Assembly (NCBI RefSeq): GCF_030246925.1
Contig: NZ_CP126740.1
Span: forward strand, 2,666,001-2,730,000
Direction of reading: 5' to 3'
Length of the DNA: 64,000 nt
DNA from: Microbacterium sp. zg-Y625
GTDB taxonomy: Bacteria > Actinomycetota > Actinomycetes > Actinomycetales > Microbacteriaceae
Under the pieces are notes generated by a model. It was not told the DNA's origin. It ran no database searches and worked only from the letters and a program-made list of their open reading frames with translations. A program made the position numbers and the translations under genes. Position 1 is the stretch's first letter, and the number at the start of each line of letters is the position of its first letter. This document shows, one piece after another, positions 13,431-63,876 of the stretch.

Positions 13431-14921
13431 TCAGCACTCGATGACGTTGACGGCGAGCCCGCCTTCGCTGGTCTCCTTGTACTTCGTCGACATGTCGATG
13501 CCCGTCTGCCGCATCGTCTCGACGACGGCGTCGAGCGAGACGTAGTGCGTGCCGTCACCGCGCAGCGCGAGGCGCGAGGCGGTGACGGCGGTCGACGCGG
13601 CGATGGCGTTGCGCTCGATGCAGGGGATCTGCACGAGCCCGCCGACGGGGTCGCAGGTGAGCCCCAGGTGGTGCTCCATCGCGATCTCGGCGGCGTTCTC
13701 GATCTGCCGGTTGGTGCCTCCCATGACGGCGGTGAGCCCCGCGGCGGCCATCGCGCACGCGGATCCCACTTCGGCCTGGCATCCGCCTTCAGCGCCCGAG
13801 ATCGACGCGTTCGCCTTGAACAACGACCCCAGCGCCGTCGCGGTGAGCAGAAACCGGCGGATGCCGCGGCGGCGGTTGGCGTCGGCGAGCGCCGGATCGT
13901 CGTCTTCGGGGGCGAGCCCTCCGGCCGGCGCGTGGTAGCCGAGCAGCGCGCTGCCGACCAGTTCGCCATAGGGGGTGACGGCGTTGCCCGAGCCGAGGCC
14001 CGAGTCGGCGAGGAACCGCCACCAGTACATGCCGACGGCGGGGAGGATGCCGGCCGCGCCGTTGGTCGGGGCGGTCACGACCCGGCCGCCCGAGGCGTTC
14101 TCTTCGTTGACGGCGAGCGCGAACGCGCCGAGCCACTCGCCCGGGAGCTCGCGGCGTCCCTCGGACTCGGCCTCGTCGAGCTGCGCGCGGATCATGCCGG
14201 CACGGCGCTTGACCTTGAGCATGCCCGGGAGCACCCCGTCGGCCTGCAGCCCCGCGTCGACGCACGCCGCCATCGCGTCCCAGATCGCGTCGAGGCCGGC
14301 GGCCACCTCCGCCTCGTCGCGCAGGGCCTGCTCGTTGAGCCGCGCCGCCTCGGCGATCGTGATGCCGCGCTCGTCGCACAGGGCGATGAGCTGCTCGGCG
14401 CTGTCGTAGGCGAGGGGGAACGGCCGCGTGGTCACGCGCTGCTCCTCGCCCTCGCGGCGGATGAAGCCGCCGCCGACCGAGTAGTACGTCTCCTCCGCCA
14501 CAGTGGCGCCGGTGGCATCCATCGCCGTCAGTGTCAGGGCGTTCGGGTGCCCCGGAAGCCGCGTGCGCGGAAGGAAGGCGATGTCGGTCTTCGCGAACGG
14601 AACCGGATGGATACCGGCCAGCTGCAGCTGCGCGCCCTCGGGCCAGGCGGTCCAGGCGCGGCGTACGGTGTCGGGATCGACGCCCTCGGGGGCGTGCCCC
14701 TGCAGCCCGGCGACGACCGCGTCGGGGGTGCCGTGGCCGATGCCGGTGGCGCCGAGGGACCCGAAGAGGGTGCAGGTCACGCGTGCGACGCGCGACAGAG
14801 CGCCCGCCTCACGCAGGCGGGCGGCGAAGTCACGGCCCGCCCGCATGGGGCCGACGGTGTGGGAGCTCGAGGGTCCTACTCCGATGGAGAACAGCTCGAA
14901 CGCCGAGACGTACGCGCTCAC
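13431..14921 (-). CDS. sdaA: L-serine ammonia-lyase (serine dehydratase), iron-sulfur single-chain type
   Basis: 496 residues. It converts L-serine to pyruvate and ammonia in the cytoplasm using a [4Fe-4S] cluster. The N-terminal beta domain begins SAFELFSIGVGPSSSHTVGP, the standard signature. The alpha domain has the cysteine motifs GGCQAEVGSACAMAAAG, CDPVGGLVQIPCIERN and a C-terminal Cys as the final residue (VIEC), which in studied enzymes can act as an active-site plug. It appears monocistronic; the short gap to the Hsp20 gene holds a strong terminator. Confidence 0.97.
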   Translation of the reverse strand: MSAYVSAFELFSIGVGPSSSHTVGPMRAGRDFAARLREAGALSRVARVTCTLFGSLGATGIGHGTPDAVVAGLQGHAPEGVDPDTVRRAWTAWPEGAQLQLAGIHPVPFAKTDIAFLPRTRLPGHPNALTLTAMDATGATVAEETYYSVGGGFIRREGEEQRVTTRPFPLAYDSAEQLIALCDERGITIAEAARLNEQALRDEAEVAAGLDAIWDAMAACVDAGLQADGVLPGMLKVKRRAGMIRAQLDEAESEGRRELPGEWLGAFALAVNEENASGGRVVTAPTNGAAGILPAVGMYWWRFLADSGLGSGNAVTPYGELVGSALLGYHAPAGGLAPEDDDPALADANRRRGIRRFLLTATALGSLFKANASISGAEGGCQAEVGSACAMAAAGLTAVMGGTNRQIENAAEIAMEHHLGLTCDPVGGLVQIPCIERNAIAASTAVTASRLALRGDGTHYVSLDAVVETMRQTGIDMSTKYKETSEGGLAVNVIEC

Positions 14922-14938
14922 CCTTCGAGCCTACGCGC

Positions 14939-14970
14939 AGAAGCCCCGGACGGGCTCGTCCGGGGCTTCT
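14939..14970 (-). terminator. Strong hairpin terminator after hsp20
   Basis: Perfect 14-bp stem (AGAAGCCCCGGACG paired with CGTCCGGGGCTTCT) around GGCT, starting 12 bases after the hsp20 stop on the minus strand. No long U tract follows, as is usual in high-GC Actinobacteria. Confidence 0.9.
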
Positions 14971-14981
14971 GGCGGTGTGCG

Positions 14982-15440
14982 TCAGGACTGCGAGGCCTGC
15001 TCCTGCGAGCCGGACTCGCCCACCTGAAGGGTGGGGCCGGAGTCGTCGGTGGTCACCTCGACCTTGCGGGGCTTGGCCTTCTCGCTGACCGGGATCCTCA
15101 CGCTCAGCACACCGTTGCGGTAGGTCGCGGCGATGCGCTCGGTGTCGAGCCCCTGCCCGAGGCTCAGCTGGCGCAGGAAGCTGCCGGCCTCGCGCTCGCG
15201 GGTGATCCACTTCACGCCCTCGCCGACGTTGATCGTGCGCTCGGCGCGGATCGTCAGCAGCTGGCCGTCGACGTCGATGTCGACCGAGCCCGGGTCGATG
15301 CCGGGCAGGTCGGCCTCCAGTACGTAGTGGTCACCCTCGCGGTACAGGTCCATCGGCATCTGCCGCGGCCCGCGGCGGATGGGGTCCATGAGGGTGGTCG
15401 CGAAACGCTCCAGGTCACGGAGCGGGTCGTATGTCGCCAT
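14982..15440 (-). CDS. hsp20: Hsp20/alpha-crystallin small heat-shock protein
   Basis: 152 residues from ATG at 15440, preceded by a strong Shine-Dalgarno (GAAAGGAGACGAGA); the upstream in-frame ATG lacks one. The alpha-crystallin domain covers about 42-140 (MDLYREGDHYVLEADLPGID, YRNGVLSVRIPVSE), followed by a short acidic tail. It is an ATP-independent chaperone that holds unfolding proteins in the cytoplasm. Upstream are a perfect HspR (HAIR) operator and a CIRCE-like inverted repeat, so control by HspR, and perhaps also HrcA, is likely. Confidence 0.96.
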   Translation of the reverse strand: MATYDPLRDLERFATTLMDPIRRGPRQMPMDLYREGDHYVLEADLPGIDPGSVDIDVDGQLLTIRAERTINVGEGVKWITREREAGSFLRQLSLGQGLDTERIAATYRNGVLSVRIPVSEKAKPRKVEVTTDDSGPTLQVGESGSQEQASQS

Positions 15441-15493
15441 TCTCGTCTCCTTTCGAGCAGTGCCGGATGCCGGCATTCTTCAGGTCTCAAAAA

Positions 15494-15514
15494 CTTGAGT
15501 CACATCGACTCAAG
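15494..15514. promoter_or_regulatory. HAIR operator (HspR binding site)
   Basis: CTTGAGT at 15494-15500 and ACTCAAG at 15508-15514 with a 7-base spacer, an exact match to the actinobacterial HAIR consensus CTTGAGT-N7-ACTCAAG. It lies 54 bases upstream of the hsp20 start. Confidence 0.95.
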
Positions 15515-15526
15515 TGTGCGAATAGA

Positions 15527-15552
15527 TTAGCACTCGGCCGCGAGAGTGCAAG
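15527..15552. promoter_or_regulatory. CIRCE-like inverted repeat (possible HrcA site)
   Basis: TTAGCACTC is followed after 8 bases by GAGTGCAAG. The CIRCE consensus is TTAGCACTC-N9-GAGTGCTAA, so the left arm is exact, the right arm has two changes and the spacer is one base short. It sits just upstream of the HAIR element of hsp20. Confidence 0.55.
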
Positions 15553-15603
15553 AGGAGGCCCCGCGCGGCGGGGGCGGAGCCGCCGGTCGGCGCCCCCCGC
15601 GGC

Positions 15604-15662
15604 CTCGCCTGTCGCGGATGACGCTTTCCGGCCCCCGCAGGGGACGCAATGCGACGGGCCAG
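15604..15662 (+). repeat. 59-bp palindromic repeat, copy 1
   Basis: Begins CTCGCCTGTCGCGGAT and ends AATGCGACGGGCCAG, with an inner hairpin around CCCCCGCAGGGG. It shares length, arms and inner sequence with copies at 16841-16899 (inverted) and 42341-42399. It lies about 100 bp upstream of the endonuclease-like gene. Confidence 0.8.
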
Positions 15663-15761
15663 CGGGGCGGGGCGCTCTCCACAGGCGAGGATGTCACCGT
15701 GGCATCCTGAATTGCGCCACACCGCCCGATTCCCCGCCGCCGAAGGTGCAATCGTCGGCGG

Positions 15762-16781
15762 ATGCCACACCCCGGCCCCCTCCCGCCGAACCTTGATCCC
15801 TGGTTCAGCACCACCCAGGCCTGTACGCTCGGCGCGACGCCCGGAAGGTTGCGGGCCTCCGATCTCGAGGCGCCTTTCCACGGCGCGCGTGTCATCCTGG
15901 CCTGCGCCGGCCACGAGCCGGACGCCGCGGGCGCGACTCCCCCGCACGACCCCGCCCACCGCGACCGACAGCGCCGCGAGCGGCTCCTCGTGCGGGCCCG
16001 GGCGTTCGCGACCGTGATGCCCGACCACGCGTTCTTCACTGCGATGACCGCCGCGGTCATCTGGGGCCTGCCGCTGCCGCCCCGACCCCCAGGCCGGCCG
16101 GATCCCGAGCCGCTGCACGTCGCCGTCTTCGCGCCCCGGCGGCTGTTGCGGGCAGCGGGCGTGCGGGGGCACGAGACCACACCGATGCTCACGAGCATCC
16201 AGCAGCATCGCGGGCTCCCGGTAGCGACCCCGGCGTCCACGTGGGCGTCCCTCGGTCGGTTCCTGAGCGTCGCGCACCTCGTAGCCGTGGGCGACGCGAT
16301 CGTGCACCAGCCACGGCAGCGCGGTGGCGACAGAGGCGGCCCAGCGGCGGCGCTCGCAACGCTCGACGACCTGGCGTCGGCGGTGGCGGCCGGACGCCGC
16401 GTCGGCGTGGGACGGCTGCGCGAGGCCCTGCCGCGGATCCGCGTGGGCAGCATGTCTCCGGGCGAGACCGACCTGCGAGAGGCGCTCATACAAGCGGGCC
16501 TACCGGAGCCGGAGCTCGACGTCGACCTGGTGGATGCCACCGGAAGGCGCTTCGGCTGGACCGAGATCGCGTATCCACGGTGGCGGGTTCTCGTGGAGTA
16601 CGAGGGCGACCACCACCGCACCGACCGCGCGCAGTGGCACCGCGACGTGGCGAAGCACGCACGATGCCGCGACCTCGGATGGGATGTCGTACGGGTCACC
16701 GCAGGGGACGTGTACCCCCGACCGCGCCACGCCGTGGAGCGAGTGCGCCACGCCCTGATGCGCGCGGGCTGGCGTCCCTGA
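15762..16781 (+). CDS. Endonuclease-like protein (DUF559/PD-(D/E)XK-type C-terminus)
   Basis: 339 residues, cytoplasmic. The C-terminal third has a restriction-endonuclease-like pattern seen in DUF559/Vsr-type proteins: WTEIAYPRWRVLVEYEGDHH, then CRDLGWDVVRVTAGDV, with acidic residues at the places expected for a metal-binding core. The N-terminal part (GRLRASDLEAPFHGARV) resembles the winged-helix start of AbiEi-like actinobacterial proteins. Such proteins are common in Microbacteriaceae and their role is unknown. The gene is bracketed by inverted copies of a 59-bp palindromic repeat and lies next to tRNA-Arg, an arrangement that suggests mobility. The ATG start has no clear Shine-Dalgarno. 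Confidence 0.7.
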   Translation: MPHPGPLPPNLDPWFSTTQACTLGATPGRLRASDLEAPFHGARVILACAGHEPDAAGATPPHDPAHRDRQRRERLLVRARAFATVMPDHAFFTAMTAAVIWGLPLPPRPPGRPDPEPLHVAVFAPRRLLRAAGVRGHETTPMLTSIQQHRGLPVATPASTWASLGRFLSVAHLVAVGDAIVHQPRQRGGDRGGPAAALATLDDLASAVAAGRRVGVGRLREALPRIRVGSMSPGETDLREALIQAGLPEPELDVDLVDATGRRFGWTEIAYPRWRVLVEYEGDHHRTDRAQWHRDVAKHARCRDLGWDVVRVTAGDVYPRPRHAVERVRHALMRAGWRP

Positions 16782-16840
16782 CGCGCACCGCGGACGCGGA
16801 CGGGGCCGGCGGATGGGGGCCGCCGCGGGCTGGCCGCGCG

Positions 16841-16899
16841 CTCACCTGTCGCATTCGGTCGCTTCCCGCGGCGGGAAACCGTCATCCGCGACAGGCGAG
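16841..16899 (-). repeat. 59-bp palindromic repeat, copy 2 (inverted)
   Basis: Read on the minus strand it begins CTCGCCTGTCGCGGAT and ends AATGCGACAGGTGAG, with an inner TTCCCGCCGCGGGAA hairpin. It has the same 59-bp length as copy 1 and lies in opposite orientation on the other side of the endonuclease-like gene. Confidence 0.82.
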
Positions 16900-16920
16900 C
16901 GGGCCGGGGAGCGGGAAACA

Positions 16921-16950
16921 CGAAAGGCCCCGGCGAACCGGGGCCTTTCG
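16921..16950. terminator. Hairpin terminator between the endonuclease-like gene and tRNA-Arg
   Basis: Perfect 13-bp stem CGAAAGGCCCCGG/CCGGGGCCTTTCG around CGAA. It is 20 bases downstream of the tRNA 3' end on the minus strand and also downstream of the plus-strand gene, so it may serve both directions. Confidence 0.9.
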
Positions 16951-16969
16951 TTACTGTCTCAACACAGTG

Positions 16970-17042
16970 TGCGCCCGAAGAGACTCGAACTCCCAACCTT
17001 CTGATCCGTAGTCAGATGCTCTATCCATTGAGCTACGGGCGC
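16970..17042 (-). tRNA. tRNA-Arg (anticodon ACG)
   Basis: 73 nt on the minus strand. The acceptor stem is GCGCCCG/CGGGCGC with discriminator A, the D-arm is GCTCAATGGATAGAGC, the anticodon arm is TCTGA-CTACGGA-TCAGA giving anticodon ACG, and the T-arm contains GTTCGAGTC. No CCA is encoded. ACG would be read as ICG after deamination, decoding CGU, CGC and CGA. Confidence 0.97.
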
Positions 17043-17121
17043 ATGGCCTGAACTCTCGTGCGGGCCTCGTAAAGCTTACCCGACCCGAGGCGGTCGCGCG
17101 AATCGGGGCCGCTTCGGCGCG

Positions 17122-17736
17122 TCAGCCGCCCGCTGCGGCCCCTCCGTCGGGGTCGCCGGCGCTACGCTCGGCGGCGGCCTGAGTCCCCGCGCGGCGGTGC
17201 GCCCGAAGCTTGGGGAGGTCCACCATGCGCAGCGCCTGCATGCGCGCGAGGCGCATCCTGTCGTAGTCGGGCTCCAGGTCCGGCCTGGCCGCTTCGATCC
17301 GCAGCGTGCGGTCGATGTTCTTGGCGACTTCCGACCAGGCGGCATCCCTCGCGTCGTCGACGAGCTTGACGAGCTCTTCCGGATCCTCGGCGCGCTCTCG
17401 CAGCGCCTGAGCGACGTGCAGCGACTGGTTGCGCCGCTTGCGCAGGTTGCGCACGTCGCGGCTGCGGTAGTCGTGCGTCCCGTCCGAGTCGGTGTGGCGC
17501 CCCTTGGCCGCCTTGCGCTCCTTCTCGGCACGGTCAGCGTCGGCTTCCGCCTCGGCGGCGAGGCTCAGCAGGGTCTCGCGCGCGTCGGGCACGAAACGGT
17601 CGACGTCAAATCCCTCGGCCCCGGTGAGGATGTCGACGAGGATGCGGTTCTTCAAGGCCAGCCGCGTCGCCGCAGAGGCGATGTAGAGCCCCTCGGCGAC
17701 GATGTCGTCATGCTTCGGCTTCTTTCGCAGCGCCAC
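17122..17736 (-). CDS. Conserved hypothetical protein with charged helical region
   Basis: 204 residues from GTG at 17736, chosen because AAAGGGGG lies 4 bases before it; an in-frame ATG at 17751 is the alternative. No signal peptide or membrane helix. The middle (about 60-120) is highly charged and helical (AAEAEADADRAEKERKAAKG, RSRDVRNLRKRRNQSLHVAQ) and could be coiled coil. Similar short proteins occur in related genera, sometimes under misleading names such as asparagine synthase; nothing here supports that enzyme. Function unknown. Confidence 0.72.
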   Translation of the reverse strand: MALRKKPKHDDIVAEGLYIASAATRLALKNRILVDILTGAEGFDVDRFVPDARETLLSLAAEAEADADRAEKERKAAKGRHTDSDGTHDYRSRDVRNLRKRRNQSLHVAQALRERAEDPEELVKLVDDARDAAWSEVAKNIDRTLRIEAARPDLEPDYDRMRLARMQALRMVDLPKLRAHRRAGTQAAAERSAGDPDGGAAAGG

Positions 17737-17852
17737 GGCACCCCCTTTCATCGATCCTAGGGCGGCGGGTGCGACGGCATCCATTCGCGGACGACGACCG
17801 GCGGGGGAACGCGCGGCAGACCTTCACGAAAGGAGCGAGGGCGCCTGTCGCC

Positions 17853-18791
17853 TCAGATCGCGAAGATCCGCCAGCCCGCTTCGGCCACAGCGCCCGGCTC
17901 GATGACGAGCAGCCCCGGGTCGAAGTCGTAGCGGGGGGCGTTGAAGGCATCGGGGGCGCACGTCATGGGCTCGACCGCGAGGCCGCCGCGGTGCCCCGGC
18001 TGAGCCGGGCCCCCGGGGAGGTCGGCAGTGTGCACCTGCACCCATGGGCACGCGGCGTCCCACGCGATGCCGACACCGTGACCGGCGGCGTCGGTGACCC
18101 GCACGGCGGTGATCCCGTCGGCATCCGCCGTGAAAGCCGTGAACGCGTGGTCGATCTCGGTCGCGCCGATCTGCCGCGGCGTGCGGAAGTCGAACGCGGC
18201 ATCCACCGGCCCGAGGGTCGTCGGGATCAGACGGTCAGCCGTGACCGAGAGCACCTCGGATGCCGGCAGCTCGAGCGTCCACTCGTCGACCGTGCCTTCC
18301 CCCGCCACGAGATAGGGGTGGGGTCCGGTGCCGAAGGGCGCGGCATCGGCCGAGAGGTTCTGCGCGCGCACCGTCTGGGTGAGCCCCTCGTCGCCGAGCG
18401 CGAAGGTGGTGGTCACCCGCACCCGCCAGGGGTAGCCGGTCTGCGGCTCGATGGTCGCCTCGAGCGTGACGTGGTCGGAGCCCTTGTCGACGGCTTCGAA
18501 GTCGAGCCACGCGGCCAGCCCGTGCAGGGCGTGTCCGCGGTCGGGTTCGGTCAACGGCAGCTGGCGCTCCTCGCCCCCGAACGCGTAGCGGCCGTCGACG
18601 ACACGGTTCGGCCAGGGCGCGAGGGTCGTGCCGCGGTACGCCGGGCGCACCTCGTCGGCGTCGAAGGGCACCACGAGGTTCCTGCCGCTGTGCGTGAACG
18701 ATCGCAGCGACGCCCCGACGCTAGCGACCACCGCCTCGCAGCGGCCGTGGCGGAGGGTGTGCTGGATGCCGGATGCCGGAATGTGCGCCAT
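17853..18791 (-). CDS. Aldose 1-epimerase family protein (GalM-like)
   Basis: 312 residues from ATG at 18791, two bases after the araA stop, so co-transcribed with the kinase and araA. The galactose-mutarotase fold is recognisable: TLAPWPNRVVDGRYAFGG, a catalytic-type His in RGHALHGLAAW and another in GTGPHPYLVAG, and Glu in GGLAVEPMTCAPDAFN. The enzyme interconverts alpha and beta anomers of free sugars; in this operon L-arabinose is the likely substrate, although galactose is also possible given the GH42 gene. Confidence 0.92.
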   Translation of the reverse strand: MAHIPASGIQHTLRHGRCEAVVASVGASLRSFTHSGRNLVVPFDADEVRPAYRGTTLAPWPNRVVDGRYAFGGEERQLPLTEPDRGHALHGLAAWLDFEAVDKGSDHVTLEATIEPQTGYPWRVRVTTTFALGDEGLTQTVRAQNLSADAAPFGTGPHPYLVAGEGTVDEWTLELPASEVLSVTADRLIPTTLGPVDAAFDFRTPRQIGATEIDHAFTAFTADADGITAVRVTDAAGHGVGIAWDAACPWVQVHTADLPGGPAQPGHRGGLAVEPMTCAPDAFNAPRYDFDPGLLVIEPGAVAEAGWRIFAI

Positions 18792-29659: not shown

Positions 29660-29993
29660 AGCAGGCCCGGCTCCCTCGCGTCGCTCGTCTCCGCGCGCTT
29701 CGGTCGCCGCGGTTGGGGCGGCGCGGTTCGGGCGGCGCGGTTCGGGCGCCGCCTTCGGGCGCCGCGGGTCGGGCCGCCTGCTTCGGTCGCCGCGGTTGGC
29801 CCCTCTGGGGGCGCGCATCAGGCCGTTTGCGACGACCGAGCGACCCGGGATCCACCACGCGGGTGGCGACTGCTCCTGTGTGATCCCGGCCGTCTCCTCC
29901 ACAACCTGGAACGGCCGCGAGTTATCCACAATGCCCGTTTGGCCTGGGATTTGTGGGCGCTCAATGTCGGAGGGGGTCGGCAGAATCAGGGGT
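29660..29993. repeat. 334-bp intergenic region with GC-rich direct repeats
   Basis: No gene seen. GCTTCGGTCGCCGCGGTTGG occurs at 29697-29716 and again exactly at 29780-29799. Between them a 14-bp unit (GGCGGCGCGGTTCG) is tandemly repeated at about 29717-29745, along with GCC-rich hairpins. The right third holds a perfect DnaA-box sequence and leads into the HNH gene. Confidence 0.75.
29922..29930. promoter_or_regulatory. Perfect DnaA-box sequence
   Basis: TTATCCACA, identical to the consensus DnaA box, 64 bases upstream of the DUF222-HNH start. A single box need not be functional. Confidence 0.45.
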
Positions 29994-42340: not shown

Positions 42341-42399
42341 CTCGCCTGTCGCGGATTGCGGTTACCCGATCGCGCAAGCCGCAGAATGCGACAGGCGAG
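42341..42399 (+). repeat. 59-bp palindromic repeat, copy 3
   Basis: Perfect 12-bp outer arms CTCGCCTGTCGC/GCGACAGGCGAG, with inner GGAT at the left and GAAT at the right, as in the two copies around the endonuclease-like gene. It lies between the divergent PadR and DUF1992 genes with no endonuclease gene beside it. Confidence 0.82.
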
Positions 42400-48616: not shown

Positions 48617-48714
48617 AGCTCCCGTCACCCGCCGAGCTCTCGTCACCCGCGCCGCTCGAGTGTCACGAATGGCGGATGCCGCGGCGCGCGACCGTGCGGA
48701 CGCGACACTCGAGC
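48617..48714. repeat. Composite direct and inverted repeat between convergent genes
   Basis: AGCTCCCGTCACCCGC (48617-48632) and AGCTCTCGTCACCCGC (48635-48650) are direct repeats 18 bases apart. Then GCTCGAGTGTC (48654-48664) and its perfect inverse GACACTCGAGC (48704-48714) enclose 39 bases. It may act as a two-way terminator between the LLM fusion gene and the AhpD-like gene. Confidence 0.75.
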
Positions 48715-63758: not shown

Positions 63759-63876
63759 CGCCGAGTGAGTATTCGCAACGCCGAGTGAGTATTCGCGTCG
63801 CCGAGTGAGTATTCGCGTCGAGTACTCACTCGGCGTGCCGAATACTCACTCGAGCGCGTGAATACTCACGCGAGGG
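63759..63876. repeat. Six-unit, 20-bp-period inverted repeat array
   Basis: CGCCGAGTGAGTATTCGC occurs exactly at 63759, 63779 and 63799; then three inverse units follow at about 63819, 63837 and 63857 with core GAATACTCAC (GAGTACTCAC in the first). Together they form one large imperfect palindrome with about 55-bp arms between two convergent genes. Confidence 0.9.

Follow-up and report, generated by a model that had tools for sequence, protein, structure and literature searches.

A nuclease-like gene family linked to 59-bp palindromes in Microbacterium

To our knowledge, most known cases of a dedicated gene accompanying dispersed palindromes involve the transposases associated with repetitive extragenic palindromic (REP) elements, the REP-associated tyrosine transposases (RAYTs). 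Here we analyzed a 64,000-nucleotide stretch of Microbacterium sp. zg-Y625 (NZ_CP126740.1, positions 2,666,001 to 2,730,000; hereafter, the window), in which a gene for a 339-aa nuclease-like protein is bracketed by two 59-bp palindromes. In REP/RAYT systems (TnpA-REP, REPtrons) a gene is likewise bracketed by palindromes, the dispersed repeats often lie between convergent or unidirectional genes, and gene and repeats co-occur (PMC3733652, PMC8266576). A first-pass annotation of the sequence had pointed out this likeness, with an unrelated protein, and it stands: the bracketing palindromes are dispersed, and the zg-Y625 genome (G000) has no match to Y1_Tnp (HUH Y1 transposase, PF01797), for which a control search was positive in 5 of 14 genomes. 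The systems differ in the protein, here AbiEi-like and Vsr/EDxHD-like by prediction, in the length of the palindromes (59 bp, versus 20–40 bp for REPs; PMC3733652), and in the support found here for duplex half-sites rather than single-stranded hairpins.

Residues ~3–227 of the protein are predicted to adopt an AbiEi-like DNA-binding fold, as in the family of Streptococcus AbiEi and mycobacterial Rv2827c, and a defence-library search returned a weak AbiEi match (E 0.021); a Foldseek search was negative. The Rv2827c operator consists of a pair of 23-bp inverted repeats separated by 13 bp (PMC7319586), which sum to the same 59-bp span (23-13-23) as that of the palindromes; two such pairs 4 bp apart correspond to 63 bp, i.e., six helical turns. 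Unlike these relatives, the protein has a fused nuclease domain, its genome yielded no match to the AbiEii toxin (PF08843; control search positive in 4 of 14 genomes), and its sites flank the gene on either side besides being dispersed.

The remainder of the protein (residues ~230–337) is predicted to form a Vsr/EDxHD-like nuclease domain, and E235, E279, E281, D283, and H285 are invariant among 85 sequences. These conserved acidic and histidine residues and the fold fit a Vsr/EDxHD nuclease, and the protein would probably cleave DNA; the sequence shows the gene to be under purifying selection. The predicted nuclease fold is shared with Vsr and the EDxHD homing endonuclease I-Bth0305I, and the size of the site with the latter, a dimer whose target measures nearly 60 bp (PMC3943268). 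The gene described here differs in its AbiEi-like DNA-binding part and in its position between complete putative sites, not inside its own target site, with which free-standing homing types remain compatible. The C-terminus also has weak Pfam matches, both under the cut-off, to the MTES_1575 REase and DUF559. MTES_1575 is a Vsr-type domain described in giant HEPN and helicase fusions, and the available text of PMC3710099 does not mention linked repeats.

One large REP class is without a known enzyme (PMC3733652). No description of a DUF559-type nuclease gene paired with repeats was found in the open-access literature, a coverage with subscription papers and preprints mostly outside it. The comparison points to a hitherto unnoticed type of partnership between gene and repeats, although it may have been described elsewhere.

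Palindromes beside the nuclease-like genes

The nuclease-like gene family is linked to the palindromes beyond chance. A scan of 91 homologue loci that assumed no arm sequence detected 55 palindromes of length 59 in 90 kb of near flank, whereas 45 kb of far flank held none and 90 kb of genes held one, and at lengths near 59 the odd ones exceeded the even ones. In 80 named loci, the best of 391 relatives (Microbacterium and related genera) with genes partly overlapping the 91-locus set, the same count gave 48 in 79 kb near versus 2 in 267 kb far. With a pair-score model (threshold 12), whose training palindromes came partly from loci then scored, there were 177 matches in 78 kb of near flank, 1 in 236 kb of far flank, none in genes, and 4 in the reversed near flanks of these loci; copies thus pair around homologues of the gene, as the first-pass annotation had asked. 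Fifty of 58 palindromes, the other 8 having been dropped by eye as near-duplicates or for doubtful register, align gap-free across 59 columns. The invariance of G8, C10, G50, and C52 in this set is partly due to selection (at least three of these four were demanded), and the values for G8 and C10 in a wider set were 0.90 and 0.87.

Full flanks were available for 126 of 132 distinct genes, and sites were detected on both sides of 64, only 5' of 17, only 3' of 18, and beside none of 27. For 46 of 85 genes the nearest 5' site ends 98–115 nt upstream of the start codon, and for 66 of 85 the nearest 3' site begins <60 nt past the stop. At the level of whole genomes (n = 295; at most 18 candidates scored each, stricter filters, both strands counted), at least eight model matches were found in 118 of 233 gene-bearing genomes versus 11 of 62 without the gene. 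Eight of those 11 carry divergent homologues and three do not; five genomes lacking gene and repeats alike were also checked, and one of them has a divergent homologue. One homologue (L121, in G205) has an internal stop codon, and its genome is palindrome-poor (4 model matches, versus none under a stricter count).

The arms of the palindromes are largely particular to the gene that they flank. Left and right arms agree at 10 or more of 12 positions in 47% of 66 two-sided genes (0.9% in 3000 random gene pairs), and the gene's own 3' set was the single best arm match in 37 of the 66. Outside the genus, common arms were detected in 16 of 22 loci (far controls, 0/22), and in 27 of 35 when 13 divergent Microbacterium loci are included (far controls, 0/35; lengths 46–67). 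A Mantel test of arms against protein for 37 loci gave r = 0.37 for the N-terminal and r = 0.33 for the C-terminal part, and the DNA-binding part is therefore not singled out.

The outer-arm pattern of the unit, CTCGCCTGTCGC-N35-GCGACAGGCGAG with up to 3 mismatches, occurs at 25 places in the 3.26-Mb zg-Y625 genome (reversed pattern, 0); across 295 genomes of the genus, 13 had any match, the relative G031 having 17. For six other genomes, we compared the strongest copies among the top matches (20 stretches) with some of the genes in each genome. The dispersed copies bear the arms of a local gene in four of them (G067, G153, G112, and G115), with L263 in G153 and one weak match in L270 as exceptions, whereas in G288 and G137 no gene compared had a flanking site with the arms of the dispersed copies. 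Wide occurrence of the repeats with no link to the gene, which the first-pass annotation had named as speaking against mobility, is thus found in its first half: the repeats are mostly gene-less, yet their arms track the local gene in most of these genomes. In zg-Y625, a second arm family is represented in the window by a palindrome resembling one downstream of a second homologue, L015 (Table 1), and it has just 33–38 of 59 positions identical to three copies of the first family. The genome holds what appear to be two gene-site pairs side by side.

Putative duplex sites

The spacing of neighboring sites points to double-stranded DNA. A total of 105 of 126 start-to-start spacings fall in 70–110 bp, and 95 of these 105 deviate by at most 1.5 bp from a multiple of 10.5 (uniform expectation 34%; 51 loci), in clusters at 73/74, 83–85, 94–96, and 104–106 bp. 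Within one copy, the outer conserved motifs are 42 bp apart, i.e., four turns. No excess of pairing within copies was seen, despite a search score that favours pairing: for positions 13–23 in 22 of the 25 + 17 copies from G000 and G031 the within-copy pairing was 0.53 versus 0.52 after shuffling, and for positions 13–29 in 48 loci with at least three copies it was 0.499 versus 0.508 across copies. The halves of one copy pair no better than the halves of different copies, and the symmetry is therefore that of two equal half-sites. Covariation was strong over 50 palindromes of different genes (score 0.632 versus 0.195 shuffled). A hairpin or RNA reading of this signal was rejected, and we take it as a change of specificity between genes, because copies of one gene have no excess pairing. 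These patterns suggest that the palindromes are duplex protein-binding sites, not folded hairpins, with the pairing test being indirect and without a REP positive control.

The same evidence bears on whether the palindromes could be mobile hairpins whose single strands are processed by the encoded enzyme, as REPs are by TnpA-REP. Dispersed and mostly intergenic bracketing repeats, the existence of gene-repeat pairs, and the strong folding of the right copy (z −4.5) would all be expected of a RAYT-like system. The left copy's fold, in contrast, was matched by 24 of 200 shuffles, hairpin pairing is not kept, the palindrome length and whole-turn spacing indicate a duplex, and Y1_Tnp was not detected in the genome, making this explanation quite improbable. 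That the palindromes are ordinary bidirectional terminators, repeated by chance, would agree with their preference for convergent gaps (see below), and is hardly credible given the gene-specific arms, the fixed length, the whole-turn rows, and again the unkept hairpin pairing.

A candidate mechanism and its rivals

We favour, with somewhat better than even confidence, the reading that the gene encodes an operator-binding nuclease of the AbiEi type, whose own duplex sites are dispersed and would spread via the nuclease domain. Each palindrome would be the cognate double-stranded site, made of two inverted half-sites of ~23 bp and a spacer of ~13 bp. Sites at either end of the gene, frequently arrayed at whole helical turns, would bring several protein copies onto one face of the helix, and protein on the flanking sites would probably autoregulate its gene, like published AbiEi-type antitoxins. 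The sites have spread in a REP-like manner to intergenic regions, chiefly between convergent genes; in our view the fused nuclease would nick or cut at or beside a site, and repair from another site-bearing place would provide both spread and maintenance. The association, common arms, spacing, lack of self-pairing excess, predicted folds, purifying selection, and dispersal are read from sequence, and from these we infer binding, for which the site geometry speaks, as well as autoregulation, nuclease activity, and nuclease-driven spread of the sites. The 37 of 233 gene-bearing genomes without any palindrome match weigh against the link between gene and repeats. A bolder version is possible and is put forward tentatively: a selfish operator system in which an AbiEi-type regulator, having acquired a Vsr-like nuclease, would copy its duplex sites to new intergenic places, with site and protein specificity changing together to give many private gene-repeat pairs within one bacterial order. 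An unrelated second protein partnered with dispersed palindromes would mean that such pairings evolved repeatedly and are able to act on duplex DNA. The natural gene-site pairs, which number dozens, offer a ready data set on DNA recognition by AbiEi-type proteins and would account for intergenic repeat families of Microbacterium genomes.

The genomic context was profiled for 45 copies (from the window, G000 loci, and G031 stretches, including the unit's own and orthologous copies in the two genomes) using a crude gene caller. Of these, 37 were intergenic, 7 were inside genes, and 1 was at an edge. Convergent gaps held 20 of the 38 copies outside genes (background 33/168; Fisher p = 1e-4) and divergent gaps only 1 (background 46/168; Fisher p = 4e-4), namely the nuclease gene's own 5' site. 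The favouring of convergent and avoidance of divergent gaps is therefore REP-like and unlike a regulon. This argues against a purely regulatory or defensive role, in which the gene would encode an autoregulated AbiEi-type nuclease, perhaps anti-phage, and the dispersed copies would serve as a regulon or for titration with no nuclease-driven spread. Such a role would fit the predicted AbiEi-like fold, the repression by AbiEi-family proteins via inverted repeats (PMC7319586), and the weak defence-library match, and it sits less easily with sites downstream of the gene and with a genome in which no AbiEii family match was found; we consider it unlikely, though the most serious of the rivals.

The first-pass annotation had proposed a new type of small mobile unit, and the empty sites at the tRNA-Arg that it had suggested looking for do exist: among the 30 best Hsp20 loci, those of G294, G025, and G254 have the tRNA-Arg near Hsp20 without gene or palindrome. 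Homology to G294 ends at 15555 (48 bp short of the left palindrome) and restarts at 16905 (6 bp past the right one), with the left junction not exact. Recent movement of the unit is unsupported, because most copies are gene-less and G031 holds gene and palindromes in the same place (protein identity 71–73%). A small transposon moving whole (palindrome-gene-palindrome) could explain the unit-free sites and the scattering of the Hsp20 neighbourhood on the gene tree (it occurs in 19 of 90 rows with 15 changes, 9 or more of them on well-supported branches, or with 14 changes once contig-end cases are set aside; shuffled mean 17.5; some arms read 'none' where genes were merged with named duplicates), as well as a pair of loci in G115 and G064 that have only gene and palindromes in common, within ~690 bp of flank. 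It is improbable nonetheless, as most of 45 close pairs compared (of 67, some repeating the same genome) have flanks in common beyond the unit, Hsp20 has the same orientation in all 28 of the 171 loci that it adjoins (locus sets overlap), and the 15 homologue pairs inside one genome are 39–59% identical, none near-identical. Copies at 2517100, 2641310/2641415, and 2708341 in G000 have no counterpart in G031; the intergenic sequences there are quite different and the insertion junctions are therefore unreadable. The gene is mostly vertical, with relocation or exchange occurring but slowly, and either gain or loss may lie behind the empty sites. Carriage by phages or plasmids was also considered and rejected, one partial phage and four plasmid records all being <60% identical.

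The locus and other features of the window

Both 59-bp repeats of the first-pass annotation, the second inverted, were found where it had placed them, with one nuclease-like open reading frame between them (Table 1), and they form the longest inverted repeat within 14000–18500. Its claim of common outer arms holds for the right copy, which is intact, and only in part for the left one, which terminates in GCGACGGGCCAG, so that its right arm is counted as degraded. The gap between repeat and tRNA measures 69 bp, not the 71 bp given earlier. The repeats also extend beyond this gene, a point absent from the first-pass annotation: three more 59-bp palindromes fitting the same model lie elsewhere in the window, one with the arms of the unit and two with other arms.

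Table 1 Features of the unit and other palindromes in the window
Feature	Position	Strand	Remark
Hsp20 gene, one neighbour of the unit	14982..15476	-	
Left (5') 59-bp palindrome, partly degraded	15604..15662	+	pair-model score 21; ends 99 nt upstream of the start codon
Gene, 339 aa, predicted AbiEi-like fold and Vsr/EDxHD-like nuclease domain	15762..16781	+	
Right (3') 59-bp palindrome, intact	16841..16899	-	pair-model score 40
tRNA-Arg (acg), other neighbour of the unit	16969..17042	-	
Palindrome of third arm type	29782..29840	-	arms unlike those of both homologues found in the genome
Dispersed copy, same arms as the unit	42341..42399	+	both flanks present in G031, copy absent there
Palindrome of second arm family	48655..48713	+	46/59 identical to one downstream of L015

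In an Rfam scan near the unit, the tRNA alone exceeded its gathering score. The tRNA was rejected as an insertion target, with one lying within 700 bp in just 3 of 132 loci. The gap between Hsp20 and tRNA-Arg (15476–16969) is variable, being short in G294, G025, and G254 and holding another stretch in G067, and divergent homologues adjoin Hsp20 in further species.

The scan that assumed no arm sequence detected five 59-bp palindromes in the window and 17 in 390 kb of G031 (dispersed copies). The palindrome of the third arm type is possibly the leftover of a lost gene; similar arms occur beside L079, a homologue in G067. A further palindrome is located at 63788–63846 (pair-model score 14.6).
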